Shown here in pieces: positions 1-8,958 of a stretch of 35,992 nucleotides of DNA. A model generated the notes under the pieces. The model saw only the letters and a list, made by a program, of their open reading frames with translations, was not told where the DNA came from and did not search any database. The position numbers were made by a program, and so were the translations under genes. The number at the start of each line of letters is the position of its first letter. Within the stretch, counting starts at the first letter, position 1. Location of the stretch: assembly GCF_002848135.1 (NCBI RefSeq), contig NZ_PKGB01000022.1, positions 1-35,992 on the forward strand, in the 5' to 3' direction. This DNA comes from Hydrogenovibrio sp. SC-1. Its GTDB lineage: Bacteria > Pseudomonadota > Gammaproteobacteria > Thiomicrospirales > Thiomicrospiraceae.

Positions 1-420
1 TAAAAGCCAATAAACTTGAAGAGATATGGTTATTTTTCCTTTTTCAAAAAGAAGTGCACCAATCTGGGATTTTTGAACATCGCAGAAAAAAGCAAAATCT
101 CCCCATAATTGACAGTATTTAAAATGACTAACAGCTGATTCTTCGATTTCAATCCTCAGTTCCAATTTTTTAATCTTTACGTGAAAATTATTAATGAGTT
201 GTTCTTTTTCAGAGATAGACATCTTCAAGGCGATATTTTCTTCCTTGATTGCACCAACACGATTATCAATTTCTTGCTGATAGAATTTTTCTACTCTTTG
301 TTGATAGTCTTTATATTCAGCTTGACATTGCCTTAGCCGATCTTCTGTTGTCGAGCAGCCAAACAGGGATAAAGCTACAAACACACTCAGGAATATTTTT
401 TTCAATTGTTGTTTTTTCAT
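1..420 (-). CDS. Putative lipoprotein, C-terminus beyond window
   Basis: The frame stays open for 140 codons from the ATG at 420 to the window edge, so the end is not seen. The N-terminus is a lipoprotein signal: Lys-rich n-region (MKKQQLKK), hydrophobic core, lipobox LSLFGC with the lipidated Cys at residue 22, then a polar stretch starting STTED. Residues about 30-90 are rich in Glu, Lys and Gln and look helical or coiled-coil. The ATG overlaps the stop of the preceding gene (ATGA), so the two are probably translationally coupled. No family recognised. Small lipoproteins of this kind occur in conjugative and phage-like elements as entry-exclusion or lysis proteins, but that role is only a guess. 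The placement beside a Replic_Relax-like gene and a broken integrase supports a mobile-element origin. Confidence 0.7.
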   Translation of the reverse strand, partial: MKKQQLKKIFLSVFVALSLFGCSTTEDRLRQCQAEYKDYQQRVEKFYQQEIDNRVGAIKEENIALKMSISEKEQLINNFHVKIKKLELRIEIEESAVSHFKYCQLWGDFAFFCDVQKSQIGALLFEKGKITISLQVYWLL

Positions 421-1232
421 GCTCGTTTCCCCCTAATGATCTGTTCAAGAACACCAGAAACGATTACTTGAAAAAGGTTTGCATTGTTGATGTCGTTAGA
501 TTTGTTCAATGATTTAAGTTGTCGATCAATGCTCCTTTTAAAACCAGCGGTTGGCACAAGATAAAACACATAATCTACTTCGCCATCCTGAATCATAGAG
601 TCAGCTGTTTTTAGTGCTGATCTAAGTCGTGCAGTATTCTTTTGACTGAGTTCTACTTCGATTCCAATTGTCACGACCCTTTCATTTTCGTAATTTGCTT
701 TGAGTGTTTTTTCACAGATCGCATCAAACGTTTTGCCATTAAAATTTTGAGATTTAAAATGGCGTCTGACTTCCCATTCATTCGCAAAACCTATCTTGTG
801 TTTGTCAGAATGAATAAAATCAATAATCTGTTCTTGAATGGCTAAATTATGCACAAAGTTTGAAGCCGTAAGCTTATGACTTTCTTTAAACACTCTTTGA
901 GTAAAGGTTCGATCTGGTTGTGATTGTTGCAGTGTCAAAAATCCAGATTCAGTTAAGACATAACCGTATTTTGTGAATCCAGTAATTAGTGGGAATTTTC
1001 TGATCTCATTTCGCTTTTCCATTCTGTTCAAAAGTTTCTGAATTTGACTTGCTGTTTTTCCTTTTGAATCGCCAGCCACTTTGACAAGAGCGGGAATAGA
1101 TGAATATCTAAAACGATATAGCCAATCTAAGATCGCTAGCTTTCTGAGATAGCCTTTTTCTAAATGGCTGAGTTCTGAAACAGGGTTGTGCAAGTTGTAA
1201 ATACAAAATGCTTCATAAAGTTTTATAGACAT
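417..1232 (-). CDS. Replic_Relax-like winged-helix protein of a mobile element
   Basis: 271 residues. Residues about 25-100 look like a winged helix (LAILDWLYRFRYSS, then a recognition-helix-like stretch and a wing around TKYGYVLTESG). Residues about 165-230 contain TFDAICE and IGIEVELSQK followed by YVFYLV, a D...E-x-E...K pattern resembling PD-(D/E)XK nuclease folds (D170, E192, E194, K198). This architecture matches what I know of the Pfam 'replication-relaxation' (Replic_Relax) family of plasmids and integrative elements. The start is well supported: AGGAG lies seven bases upstream of the ATG. The stop overlaps the start of the lipoprotein gene by ATGA. The likely role is DNA binding or nicking during element replication or transfer, inferred from the fold only. 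A plain wHTH regulator is the alternative. Confidence 0.6.
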   Translation of the reverse strand: MSIKLYEAFCIYNLHNPVSELSHLEKGYLRKLAILDWLYRFRYSSIPALVKVAGDSKGKTASQIQKLLNRMEKRNEIRKFPLITGFTKYGYVLTESGFLTLQQSQPDRTFTQRVFKESHKLTASNFVHNLAIQEQIIDFIHSDKHKIGFANEWEVRRHFKSQNFNGKTFDAICEKTLKANYENERVVTIGIEVELSQKNTARLRSALKTADSMIQDGEVDYVFYLVPTAGFKRSIDRQLKSLNKSNDINNANLFQVIVSGVLEQIIRGKRA

Positions 1233-1734: not shown

Positions 1735-1769
1735 GGGGGGGCGTCAGGGAACCTGACTTCCCCCGTTTC
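1735..1769 (+). repeat. 35-bp hairpin unit A (GAA triloop)
   Basis: The core GTCAGG-GAA-CCTGAC lies at 1743-1757. A G-run and GGGCGTC precede it, and GACTTCC then GTTT follow. It is about 80% identical (28 of 35 by eye) to unit B on the opposite strand at 1829-1863. Unit A can fold on itself or pair with unit B. Confidence 0.6.
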
Positions 1770-1828
1770 AAGGGGTCTTTTCTAAGTTGTGGCTGTCGGG
1801 GCAGCTCAACACTAAGAACGACCGCCAG

Positions 1829-1863
1829 AAAACGATGGAAGTCAGCTTCGCCGACGCCCCTCC
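1829..1863 (-). repeat. 35-bp hairpin unit B (GAA triloop, inverted copy)
   Basis: Read on the minus strand the core is GTCGGC-GAA-GCTGAC (plus 1841-1855), flanked by GGGGCGTC and GACTTCC as in unit A. Relative to unit A one stem pair changed from G-C to C-G on both sides and another from A-T to G-T wobble, so pairing is kept while the sequence changed. Confidence 0.6.
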
Positions 1864-2104
1864 GAGACAGATCAATTTTCATCTTGGGAGATTCAAATTT
1901 TCTCAACGTTTGGACGTTTCAACTGTCTCTCTCGCAAGCGTTCTAAAAATTTGGGAATTTTTATTCACTACTAATTGGCTAGGGCAATTGGTTTGCTTAC
2001 AGCTACAAAATAAGTCATCACTGAACGTGAATGATTATTTTGTTCTCAAGCATTTTATTTTGCTGAACGCTCAAACAATGCTTTCACACCGTCACCAACA
2101 AAAA

Positions 2105-2132
2105 GTAAGGGAACCTTACCTTTTCTTTTTAT
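2105..2132 (+). repeat. Third GAA-triloop hairpin with T-rich tail
   Basis: GTAAGG-GAA-CCTTAC at 2105-2119, followed by a T-rich stretch to about 2132. Compared with unit A one C-G stem pair has become A-T, again with pairing kept. The T-rich tail on the plus strand would suit an intrinsic terminator; the minus strand also has T's after the stem, so it may act both ways. Confidence 0.5.
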
Positions 2133-2286
2133 TGGTTCTCCTCTCGTGCATTGCGGAGCAAGCACTCACTTTCGGATATGGATAACCATCCCGACCAATT
2201 TTTCAATTTGGTTTAGACTCGTTTGTCTGACGAGAGCAGAATTTCTTTGTGTCGTAAAGAAGTCAAATCGAGTGTTTTAAGGCTAG

Positions 2287-2316
2287 ACTGCCCTGTTGAT
2301 TAGGGCAGTTTGTTTT
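2287..2316 (+). terminator. Intrinsic terminator-like hairpin
   Basis: ACTGCCCT (2287-2294), a 7-base loop, AGGGCAGT (2302-2309), then TTGTTTT on the plus strand. It lies just past the integrase stop and could end a plus-strand transcript from the structured block, or insulate the integrase end. Confidence 0.5.
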
Positions 2317-2333: not shown

Positions 2334-3545
2334 TTAGGCAAAACTTTGAGACAAGGTATCGTCTAGCATATCGTCCTCTTCTTCTTCGAGAATATCTAAA
2401 CTAGCAAGATAGGTTTGAGTTTGCTTTAACGACTTGTGACCAAGTCGTCTTTTAACAACATTGAGTTCTTTAGTTTGTTTATAAAGAAATACGGCAAATG
2501 AGTGCCTAGCATCATGTGCGGTAAAGTGGTCAAGATGGAAGTGTTCTTTGAGTTCATCACAAATAGGTTTTAGATCACAGATTCCGTACAAAGTGCCTGA
2601 ATCATAAAAAACATAGTCGTCTAGGTCTTTACCCTCAATGATCCTTTTTATTGCATTCTCGGCATTCTGAATGAATATGCGGGCGGTTCTGGCTTCGCTG
2701 TTCTTGGTTTTTTTCAATAAAAGACTGATAAGAGAAGAATTATCGGATTCTAAAAACTTGATATCTCTTACCGGTAGTTCCGCCAGTTCATTTTTTCGAG
2801 CACCCGTTGCAAACAATAGTAGTAGATAATCCGCTTCTTGAGTATTCTTCTCATATAGAAAGTCGATGACATCTTTATATAGAGTATGGTGAATGGCGTT
2901 TTGTCTCGGTTTTGAGGTATTTGCTCAACGATACTTGGTAAACGGCATTTTGGAAACGACTTTTTTATCGACGAGGAAGTTTAGAAAACCACGCAATGCG
3001 TTAATTTTTCGTCTTGCTGTTTCTTCTACAGCGCAAGTTTTACATTGATCGAAAACGGCTTGTTGAAAGTCATCATTGTATTGTTCGATGCTTGTTTGAC
3101 TAACCAGTTTGTATGCTTTGTTTCTGTTGTGACTACTGAATAGAGAATTGAGCGTTTGTATATTGGATGGCTTTTTAGCACGAGTATTACAGTTCTTTAA
3201 TTGAAATTGATAATATTCATCAAAGTATTGGCGGTATAGATCAATGATCGTTATTTTTTGATGTTGAGTGTTTTCTCGATAAGTTTTTAGAAAATCTAAT
3301 GCTTGTTACCTAAAGGCAAGTAAAGACAACTCATCAATGGAAACATCATGGCGGGTGTCTTTTCTGAGTTGTTTTGATGTGTAATTGCCTAGATGGGTTT
3401 TATATTTTAAAACGGATGTAACATGATCTTTTTTGATCTCGTATCTGAGGCCAGATACATAGCCGTCTTTAAACTGTTTTAACCCTGTATCTTTTGCATT
3501 GAGAATATTGCGATTGAACTGCTCGACAGTAATTGCTTTTGACAT
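2334..3545 (-). pseudogene. Tyrosine recombinase/integrase broken by two in-frame stops
   Basis: One frame of 403 codons from ATG 3545 to 2334, interrupted only by TAA at codon 80 (3308-3306) and TGA at codon 207 (2927-2925); no frameshift. The N-terminal part (MSKAITVEQFNRNILNAKD) looks like an arm-binding domain, the middle (about 81-205) like a SAM-like core-binding domain, and the C-terminal part is the catalytic domain. Catalytic residues are all present: R250 (ATGARKNEL), Lys about 278, H344 and R347 (HDARH), H370 (GHKSL) and the nucleophile Y379 (QTYL). Both stops are one C-to-T change from a sense codon (CAA or CGA), so decay looks recent. The 160-codon C-terminal fragment could still be translated from an internal ATG at 2816, but would lack the DNA-binding domains. 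Probably the integrase of the element lying to the left. Confidence 0.85.
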
Positions 3546-3705: not shown

Positions 3706-3717
3706 TTATATATATTC

Positions 3718-3740
3718 GCCCAGGCCTGGGCGGTTTTTTG
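3718..3740 (+). terminator. Palindrome with T-run, contains CCAGGCCTGG
   Basis: A 14-bp perfect palindrome GCCCAGGCCTGGGC (3718-3731) followed by GG and six T's. It looks like an intrinsic terminator read left to right, though no plus-strand gene precedes it directly; phnA ends nearby on the other strand. First of five exact copies of the CCAGGCCTGG 10-mer. Confidence 0.4.
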
Positions 3741-8013: not shown

Positions 8014-8157
8014 TTACATGGAAAAACCGTTAAAATGATTTGCATTAATTAAACCCATTTTGGGCATTTCTGATACTTTTCGGGCGGCAATTTGATTTTG
8101 GTTTGAGTCGAGTTGGGTTGCCCAGTTAAGTTCTTTCTTAATTTGAGACAATGACAT
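8014..8157 (-). CDS. Possible 47-residue protein, head-to-head with the J-protein gene
   Basis: A short frame starting MSLSQIKKELNWATQLDSNQ with protein-like composition (several Gln, Asn and Ala, no odd runs). Its ATG is only six bases from the J-domain gene's ATG on the other strand and no clear Shine-Dalgarno site precedes it, so one of the two starts would need a promoter inside the other gene. Nothing else occupies 7819-8163. Unknown family. Confidence 0.3.
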   Translation of the reverse strand: MSLSQIKKELNWATQLDSNQNQIAARKVSEMPKMGLINANHFNGFSM

Positions 8158-8163
8158 CGATTC

Positions 8164-8958
8164 ATGTTTAACACTCGTTACGATATTTCTAAAGATTATT
8201 TCGCCTTATTAGGGGTACATCATCAGGCGTGTGAAAAAACCATTAAGCAGGCTTATCGTAAGATGGCACGTCGCTATCATCCTGACGTCTCAAGGATCCA
8301 TAACGCAACTGAAAAATTTCAAGAAATTGCCGAAGCTTATGAAGTGTTAACGCGGTTTAGAGACGCCTATTGGCGCGATTTTTGTCGGGTAAAGGGCCGA
8401 GGCCAGAGTCATCGGTCAGACACTGAGGGGGCTGGTTATGCGAACCGTCGTTCAGCTCGAGGGACACATCAATATACTAACCCAGGGTGGAAACGTCAAA
8501 AGCCAATTCGAGGCAAAGATCGAGTGATCACTTATCCTTTAACTTTGCGGTATGCGATTCGGTTGTTGAAATTAGGATATTTTTATATTCCAGGCTTAAA
8601 AGTTAAAATGAAATTTACCCGCGAGGCATTTTTGAATAAAACCTTTCGCTTAAAGGGGAAGGGCTATCATGGCTTGTTTGGGGGAGAGCCTGGTGATTAT
8701 TTAGTGAAATTTAATTTAAAGCTGGAATCGATTAATTGGCGCCTTGAAGGCTCTGATATTTATGGCACGATTGAGGTCCCCAGTACTCTATTGGTTCCTG
8801 GCGCGGAACTCTCTTTACAGTCACCGGCAGGGTGCATGAATGTGTTGGTTCCAGATGACTATTCGCCAGATGAGTATATTGTCGTTCATAATATGGGGCT
8901 GCCCGGTGATGGCGTTTATAAACCTGGGCATTTATACGCTCGCTTAATAGCCGCATAG
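8164..8958 (+). CDS. CbpA-like J-domain co-chaperone
   Basis: 264 residues. The N-terminal J-domain (about 11-70) carries the HPD motif at 39-41 (RRYHPDVS), needed to stimulate DnaK ATPase. A basic Gly/Arg-rich linker follows (about 75-115), then the DnaJ C-terminal substrate-binding domains (from about 120; ITYPLTLRYAI, RLKGKGYHG, PGDYLVKFNL). There is no zinc-finger domain, which places it with the CbpA/DnaJ type II group rather than DnaJ itself. It is shorter than E. coli CbpA (306 residues), mainly in the linker, and the linker has few Phe residues. No good ribosome site precedes the ATG, but the J-domain begins just after it. The gene runs in the same direction as clpS-clpA, about 75 bases upstream, so co-expression with the protease machinery is possible. 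Confidence 0.85.
   Translation: MFNTRYDISKDYFALLGVHHQACEKTIKQAYRKMARRYHPDVSRIHNATEKFQEIAEAYEVLTRFRDAYWRDFCRVKGRGQSHRSDTEGAGYANRRSARGTHQYTNPGWKRQKPIRGKDRVITYPLTLRYAIRLLKLGYFYIPGLKVKMKFTREAFLNKTFRLKGKGYHGLFGGEPGDYLVKFNLKLESINWRLEGSDIYGTIEVPSTLLVPGAELSLQSPAGCMNVLVPDDYSPDEYIVVHNMGLPGDGVYKPGHLYARLIAA

Follow-up and report, generated by a model that had tools for sequence, protein, structure and literature searches.

A non-coding region of about 0.9 kb in Hydrogenovibrio sp. SC-1 (NZ_PKGB01000022.1, positions 1400-2330), flanked by a broken integrase gene and a gene for a MobC-like protein, is folded far beyond its shuffled counterparts. On MOBC plasmids, the regions in the corresponding place fold just as strongly and show covariation, and they have in common with it hairpins with C-GUYCA-G loops and an arrangement in which a very long hairpin is followed by this motif. 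All coordinates refer to the window, the whole stretch of 35,992 nucleotides that was analysed.

We lean towards the view that the region specifies a large RNA, transcribed towards mobC either as a free molecule or as a long leader, that acts in mobilization, with the GUYCA loops as protein docking sites. The structured region would belong to the MOBC-type mobilization module of an integrative element in decay, and would overlap or abut a putative origin of transfer (oriT). Its repeated GUYCA loops may dock a mobilization protein or a host RNA-binding protein, and the RNA would help in the assembly or regulation of the transfer complex of MobC and MobB, comparable to sgm-sRNA, which SGI1 needs for its transfer.

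Genomic setting and folding of the region

The MobC-like gene (417-1232, minus strand; MOBC relaxase-like, replication-relaxation) lies downstream of the folded region, and positions 1233-2333 are directly 5' of it in the sense direction; mobB is absent from the window. Its product matches NF041423, the 'MobC family replication-relaxation protein' (E 1.9e-12, 47 bits, under the curated cut-off of 200), and Pfam Replic_Relax (PF13814; 22.4 bits, just under the cut-off of 25.3), so that the cut-off of neither curated MOBC relaxase family is reached. Upstream of the folded region on the minus strand is a tyrosine integrase gene (2334-3545, minus strand; matched fragment 2334-2816) that is interrupted by two in-frame stop codons, which points to an element in decay. 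Overall, the surroundings resemble an integrative mobilizable element that is decaying and is truncated at the end of the contig. An SGI1-like MpsA was considered as the recombinase and is unsupported: by eye, the integrase looks ordinary, with an N-terminal domain. On the 3' side of the MobC-like gene, positions 1-420 hold a probable lipoprotein gene (by eye), truncated by the contig end, with a weak match to a superinfection-exclusion family (E 0.0004).

On the minus strand, i.e., in the direction of mobC, the 931 nt of region 1400-2330 have a minimum free energy (MFE) of -318.1 kcal/mol, with z-scores of -7.9, -9.3, -8.9 and -9.2 in separate shuffle runs. The corresponding values for the plus strand are -296.4 kcal/mol and -5.2, -7.3, -9.6 and -6.9; the spread between runs means that z-scores from few shuffles are rough, and in one run the plus strand scored -9.6 against -8.9 for the minus strand. 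Four control stretches of about 930 nt from the window gave +1.2 to -3.7. The strand preference of folding in the window is modest: the paired difference of -21.7 kcal/mol favours the minus strand (null 1.6 ± 8.1; none of 60 shuffles as extreme; z -2.1). This bias comes from 1400-1960, while the domain at 2036-2250 is unbiased (124 of 200 shuffles as extreme) and the segments 1960-2036 and 2250-2330 lean the opposite way.

The inverted repeats beside the mob-like gene include a long unbranched hairpin of 50 pairs and 129 nt (1735-1863), with a z-score of -8.7 on the minus strand. Of 179 tiles of 200 nt that cover the window, 2001-2200 had the strongest folding, and those that split the long hairpin did not stand out. 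A hairpin followed by a T-rich tract at 2287-2309 (plus strand), a possible end signal by eye, was not listed by the terminator scan.

Three open reading frames within 1233-2333 gave no Pfam match, and no Rfam family scored above its cut-off in the folded stretch. GOLLD, ROOL, OLE and other large Rfam RNAs had no match in the window at E up to 1. LOOT RNA (RF03000) aligned over its full length to 2064-2219 on the minus strand and was rejected at 26.8 bits against a gathering score of 46.4; the relative on contig C10 described below has no LOOT match, a genome-wide search at E up to 1 reported none, and two further weak matches were seen in genomes G022 (22.3 bits) and G159 (29.7 bits). A coding sequence at 2038-2250 on the plus strand was also considered and rejected, as this stretch and its copy on C10 look protein-like for about 40 codons, but the frames part at an indel (by eye) and nucleotide conservation continues; the translation has no Pfam and no plasmid match. 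The sole foreign tblastn match, among 274 class genomes, is antisense to a respiratory-chain-like gene (by eye) and was judged to be due to chance.

The 5' domain of the region (2036-2246, minus strand; z -4.8 for 2030-2250) has a single copy in the same genome, 70% identical, at G000:C10:78062-78255, which is the only relative found. A duplication of the domain inside the folded region was not significant (smallest P 0.07). The C10 copy forms a stand-alone unit of about 205 nt (G000:C10:78059-78263, or 8060-8264 of the stretch L004) between lrp-like and GGDEF-like genes (by eye). According to the list of open reading frames, again by eye, it is not beside a recognisable mob gene. Long matches to congeners stop in or just after the lrp-like gene, ahead of the unit; the unit has short inverted ends (by eye), and a reading as a MITE was considered. 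An inverted repeat of the CCCAGGCCTGG type followed by T's was seen by eye to recur beside genes, at 3717-3737 of the window and at about 7920-7945 of L004; the L004 stretch has short matches at several places in its own genome and in congeners. Folding of the C10 paralog gave z-scores of -1.8 and -2.4 in two runs, and the two-sequence alignment with the window scored -2.3 on either strand; of 67 pairs in the window, the paralog breaks 25. The evidence for covariation between the window's two copies is weak.

Corresponding regions of MOBC plasmids

The only plasmid match of the window's MobC-like protein at E 0.01 is on p23023 from Vibrio sp. 23023, which is typed MOBC (31.8% identity over 65% of the query, E 3e-7). 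According to its gene table, p23023 carries, in this order, a 948-nt gap, a mobB-like gene, an ORF and a mobC-like gene; the z-score of the gap is -12.8 in mob sense and -8.3 in antisense. Relatives of the p23023 MobC-like protein are present in 1253 plasmid records. We fetched 23 plasmid stretches and measured folding z-scores in 13 of them. In 17 of the 23, the PLSDB table places a gap of 0.71-1.03 kb just before the mobB-like gene; these tables are incomplete, and small ORFs in the gaps may be unlisted. As to the other stretches, L075 was left out of the analysis, L080 is truncated where its record begins, a small annotated ORF follows the gap in L082, L087 is unannotated (699 nt between ORFs), L094 stops with no mobB, and in the CloDF13-like L096 the gap measures 1480 nt and includes RNAI as well. 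On the Arsenophonus plasmid (L088, 7225-7785), a gene for a ProQ/FinO-family protein, a candidate binder of RNA hairpins, is located near mobC.

The mob-sense strand of 12 plasmid regions upstream of mobB-mobC has z-scores of -7.8 to -19.7, and the CloDF13-like plasmid has -6.3 in sense and -11.9 in antisense. Five control stretches of plasmid DNA ranged from +0.8 to -3.3 on either strand, and one intergenic plasmid control gave -1.2/-1.0. Many of the plasmid regions are closely related to one another. Folding favours the sense strand in all 11 plasmid regions with a measured difference, leaving aside the CloDF13-like plasmid; the differences lie between -0.4 and -4.6 sd (about -1.9 in one control), and the CloDF13-like plasmid is reversed at +4.4 sd. 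In the K. michiganensis, Serratia and one E. coli region, the antisense z-score exceeds the sense one. No Rfam family was above its cut-off in the p23023 or K. michiganensis region, and in the CloDF13-like plasmid only RNAI reached it. For one region type, the plasmid records with DNA similar to parts of it number 92 (91 Vibrio, 1 Aeromonas); for another, they number 276 and are mostly enterobacterial. Only one record in each search matched at least 80% of the query. Some plasmids hold a second similar place (94 places in the 92 records and 298 in the 276).

Covariation was analysed in an alignment of 10 Vibrio regions (A3), out of 12 stretches fetched; L080, cut by the record start, and L086, by choice, were omitted, and L082 was used from position 1100, its gap starting at 996. 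The consensus has 271 pairs, 55 of which (20%) are changed on both sides with pairing kept, vs 15-27 among 157-187 pairs (9-16%) in eight column-shuffled alignments. The alignment energy is -257.8 kcal/mol against -93 to -112 for the shuffled ones, and the share of standard pairs is the same in both (94.6% vs 92.6-94.9%). The antisense strand of the same alignment reaches -251.8 kcal/mol, with two-sided changes in 56 of 262 pairs; since it covaries nearly as well, covariation does not choose the strand. Nine enterobacterial regions have two-sided changes at 67 of 160 pairs, a count made without a shuffled control. Pantoea L094 is included in alignment A4 and stands outside the motif, long-hairpin and loop counts.

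The window carries four copies of the motif CGTYCAG on the sense (minus) strand and none in antisense, with 0.09 expected. Two copies of CGUUCAG, at 2063-2069 and 2021-2027, form C-GUUCA-G pentaloop hairpins on the 5' side of the long hairpin; on its 3' side, CGUCCAG at 1712-1718, which follows after 17 nt, is in no loop of the local MFE fold, and CGUCCAG at 1647-1653 forms a C-GUCCA-G pentaloop hairpin. The C10 paralog has one copy of the motif. Over all 22 regions we counted 52 sense and 6 antisense copies, with 2.4 expected. The motif had been spotted by eye in the Vibrio alignment and the window ahead of counting; nine regions with sense motifs that were counted unseen (V. nigripulchritudo, Serratia, Arsenophonus, K. 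michiganensis, Klebsiella sp., two E. coli, Hafnia and K. pneumoniae 2020S09-154) have one or two sense copies and no antisense copy each. The CloDF13-like plasmid has none in sense and five in antisense, its hairpins being oriented opposite to mobB (L096 1572-1909, minus strand).

In local folds, the C-GUYCA-G pentaloop was formed in 34 of 43 distinct contexts (three of the four in the window), compared with 14 of 1500 random positions; this test covered 20 of the 22 regions, Hafnia and DHO76 being part of the motif count and outside the loop test. The C-GUYCA-G pentaloop hairpin is a repeated unit of the locus, constant in the loop and variable in the stem, that recurs in MOBC plasmids. As its stems differ, it is a unit of the very kind that the preliminary description of this DNA had looked for in hairpins with GAA loops.

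The long hairpin is likewise recurrent. In all 15 regions given, out of the 22 (14 from plasmids and the window), the largest unbranched hairpin, of 36-54 pairs, is followed by the motif within 17-50 nt. Two motifs precede the 50-pair hairpin of the window and two come after it (17 and 82 nt further), which is the order also seen in V. campbellii and V. owensii pVOWZ1. Other regions have none to three motifs before the long hairpin, the enterobacterial ones none.

These regions may, alternatively, work at the level of DNA, as an origin of transfer whose repeats and hairpins act in supercoiled or single-stranded form for relaxase or for priming, with no functional RNA; we regard this as quite possible, if on the doubtful side. 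In pMET1, the putative oriT is described as preceding mobB, and its two nic sites as falling within inverted repeat 2 (PMC2262945); inverted repeats are common in oriT regions (PMC6414798). A motif with strand preference might just as well label the strand that is transferred, the long hairpin has high stability as DNA too, and the Vibrio covariation is as strong in antisense. However, 0.7-1.0 kb of near-continuous folding far exceeds the minimal oriT of SGI1, reported as 125 bp (PMC6414798), and with G-U pairs allowed, the strand that bears the motif is mostly the better folded one, which an RNA would lead one to expect. The position of the stand-alone C10 copy, away from any recognisable mob gene by eye, also argues against a DNA-level oriT. 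The RNA and oriT readings may coincide, as the primary transcript of SGI1 runs through oriT (PMC9299015).

That the window region and the plasmid regions form one family is an assignment that we make provisionally from place, extreme folding, C-GUYCA-G hairpins on the sense strand and the long hairpin followed by the motif. It is provisional because searches by sequence and by model gave no link between them. Blastn found no nucleotide similarity between the window and the plasmid regions. A covariance model (R2), built from seven double hairpins of the enterobacterial type, did not list the window at E up to 5; with filters off, its best score there was 5.7 bits (E 0.12 in 1.1 kb). R2 is insensitive: out of seven Vibrio loci searched, it listed only two (E 0.015 and 0.32), and its match to the CloDF13-like plasmid (14.9 bits, E 0.023) was on the opposite strand.

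A further reading, which we consider improbable, is that the folded region of the window and those of the plasmids are not related: it would belong to a decaying element, with an array of inverted repeats of its own, and the motif and architecture would be shared by coincidence. The missing sequence and model link would agree with it, as would the broken integrase and the outcome of the searches for relatives. Apart from the C10 copy, there was no convincing relative in 61 other genomes of the family or in the class samples (368 other genomes, and 320 others in a second sample), and plasmids and phages held no DNA relatives of the region. Beyond its own two copies, model R1 matched only G022 (24.2 bits) and G043 (21.6 bits), both judged to be chance, and found nothing else at E 0.01 in 321 class genomes. 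Eleven viral loci in IMG/VR with CTCTCGTCARACAAAC were examined and set aside, as they had no convincing similarity beyond the pattern, and two more patterns gave no match to viral sequences. Against coincidence stand the four motif sites on one strand, three of them in C-GUYCA-G loops, the long hairpin with a motif shortly after it, an order also present in each of the 14 plasmid regions analysed for it, and the MobC-like gene directly downstream of the folded region.

Hairpins with GAA loops

The preliminary description had proposed three hairpins with a GAA loop, in which stem bases differ on both sides with pairing kept, as copies of one element under selection for the folded form. All three are present at their positions: hairpin 1 (1743-1757, plus strand) and hairpin 3 (2105-2119, plus strand) have perfect 6-bp stems, but that of hairpin 2 (1841-1855, minus strand) includes one G.T pair and so departs from strict Watson-Crick pairing. 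When the 1.1-kb stretch was simulated 2000 times with a first-order Markov model, at least three GAA-loop hairpins of 6 bp on either strand, with G.T allowed, occurred with P=0.002, a value obtained after the fact, as the motif was picked once seen. Hairpins with other loops (TTT, TAT and longer) are also dense in the 1.1-kb stretch.

Hairpins 1 and 2 lie opposite each other in the two arms of the inverted repeat 1735-1787/1811-1863, i.e., of the long hairpin, and these arms pair with each other in minimum-energy folds of both RNA and DNA. As DNA, the 129-nt hairpin has -36.6 (plus) and -39.3 (minus) kcal/mol, while the local stretches of hairpins 1 and 2 have -10.3 and -2 kcal/mol (plus). With the two hairpins being opposed arms of a single repeat, and the long form far more stable, the 'compensatory change' between them comes down to one G-C to C-G swap and one wobble.

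Hairpin 3 sits in the separate domain of about 210 nt, near the tip of a longer helix on the minus strand. Pairing was expected to be kept in homologous loci; in the C10 relative, the sole one found, four of its six pairs are lost in the BLAST and in the MAFFT alignment alike. The two alignments differ by one base at this site, and the loop is changed in the former and reads TTC, as on the minus strand of the window, in the latter. A GAA-loop hairpin of 6 bp is absent from the 442-nt stretch of the C10 relative that was scanned. The pattern GTNRGNGAANCYNAC has four matches in the own genome, three of which are these hairpins, vs eight for the reversed pattern, and 24 vs 75 in 10 congeneric genomes; there is no enrichment.

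The claim of a GAA-triloop family thus largely fails by the tests that came with it, and the three hairpins do not behave as homologous copies of one unit. Two broader points of the preliminary description fared better, as folding does seem to matter at this locus and its setting is a mobile element.

Of 20 regions scanned, among them that of the window, 17 have GAA-loop hairpins of 6 bp (G.T allowed, either strand), e.g., AATTTC-GAA-GAAATT in enterobacterial plasmids. Their stems are unrelated to those of the window's three and many copies come from close relatives, so we read them as part of the general hairpin density, although they may have a role. A repeated TTCAATTT..GAA..AAATTGTTAA hairpin, with the GAA loop in many members, was noticed in enterobacterial MOBC regions (A4 columns 330-350 and 397-417), and a similar repeated TTTCAATCC..GGATTGTTAAA hairpin in Vibrio MOBC regions. 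A literature search on the GCGAAGC mini-hairpin gave no useful lead. Three copies of a GAA-triloop element kept by selection would agree with the presence of the hairpins, their low P value and the wide occurrence of such loops, but it is a most improbable account given the shared inverted repeat of hairpins 1 and 2, the broken pairs of hairpin 3 and the lack of enrichment in 11 genomes.

Significance and comparison with known systems

MOBC relaxases are atypical, and a large conserved structured element before the mob genes would be an overlooked part of element movement. CloDF13 MobC appears to cut DNA without the usual covalent intermediate (PMC9299015). In the open-licence literature (titles and abstract openings among the matches listed, with most subscription journals outside), no large conserved structured RNA upstream of mobB-mobC was found. 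The combination of GUYCA hairpins and one very long hairpin offers a search handle for relatives that lack detectable sequence similarity. A bolder and rather unlikely extension is that an unrecognised class of structured RNA of 0.7-1.0 kb is encoded in MOBC modules of all kinds, whether on small cloacin plasmids, on large plasmids of Vibrio or in integrative elements. Its repeated C-GUYCA-G hairpins would recruit the atypical relaxase MobC and/or MobB, and conjugative DNA processing of the MOBC class would need this RNA as a scaffold.

The nearest functional precedent for the RNA predicted in the window would be sgm-sRNA of SGI1, which comes from the mob region, next to oriT, is derived from a longer primary transcript and is required for transfer (PMC9299015). 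In both cases, the RNA (a candidate in the window) belongs to the mobilization module of an integrative mobilizable element, by a putative oriT and a mob gene. In contrast with the window, SGI1 uses MpsA/MpsB, of the tyrosine-recombinase-like type, and not MobC (PMC9299015); the comparison drawn here is by description.

In its place relative to the mob genes and in its inverted repeats, the region is comparable to the oriT-mobB-mobC structure of pMET1, which resembles that of CloDF13 (PMC2262945). The folded regions and GUYCA hairpins described above are carried by plasmids of this MOBC type. The pMET1/CloDF13 regions are, however, described as putative oriT DNA with two nic sites, and not as a large, conserved structured RNA (PMC2262945), and the window differs from the MOBC plasmids in being without mobB and without detectable sequence similarity, pMET1 being compared by description.

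GOLLD, ROOL and OLE are alike in size class and elaborate fold, and GOLLD and ROOL are encoded in phages and prophages (PMC12286853). Unlike the window, the context of these RNAs is described as phages, often near tRNA islands (PMC12286853). The PLE IIR transcript and the ncRNA of about 800 nt from ICP1 are abundant, have no predicted coding sequence and are also encoded in mobile elements; the latter lies in an ORF-less gap of about 1 kb, and the former between inverted repeats (PMC7567579). PLE and ICP1 are a satellite and a phage, respectively, not MOBC elements (PMC7567579), and are likened to the window by description.
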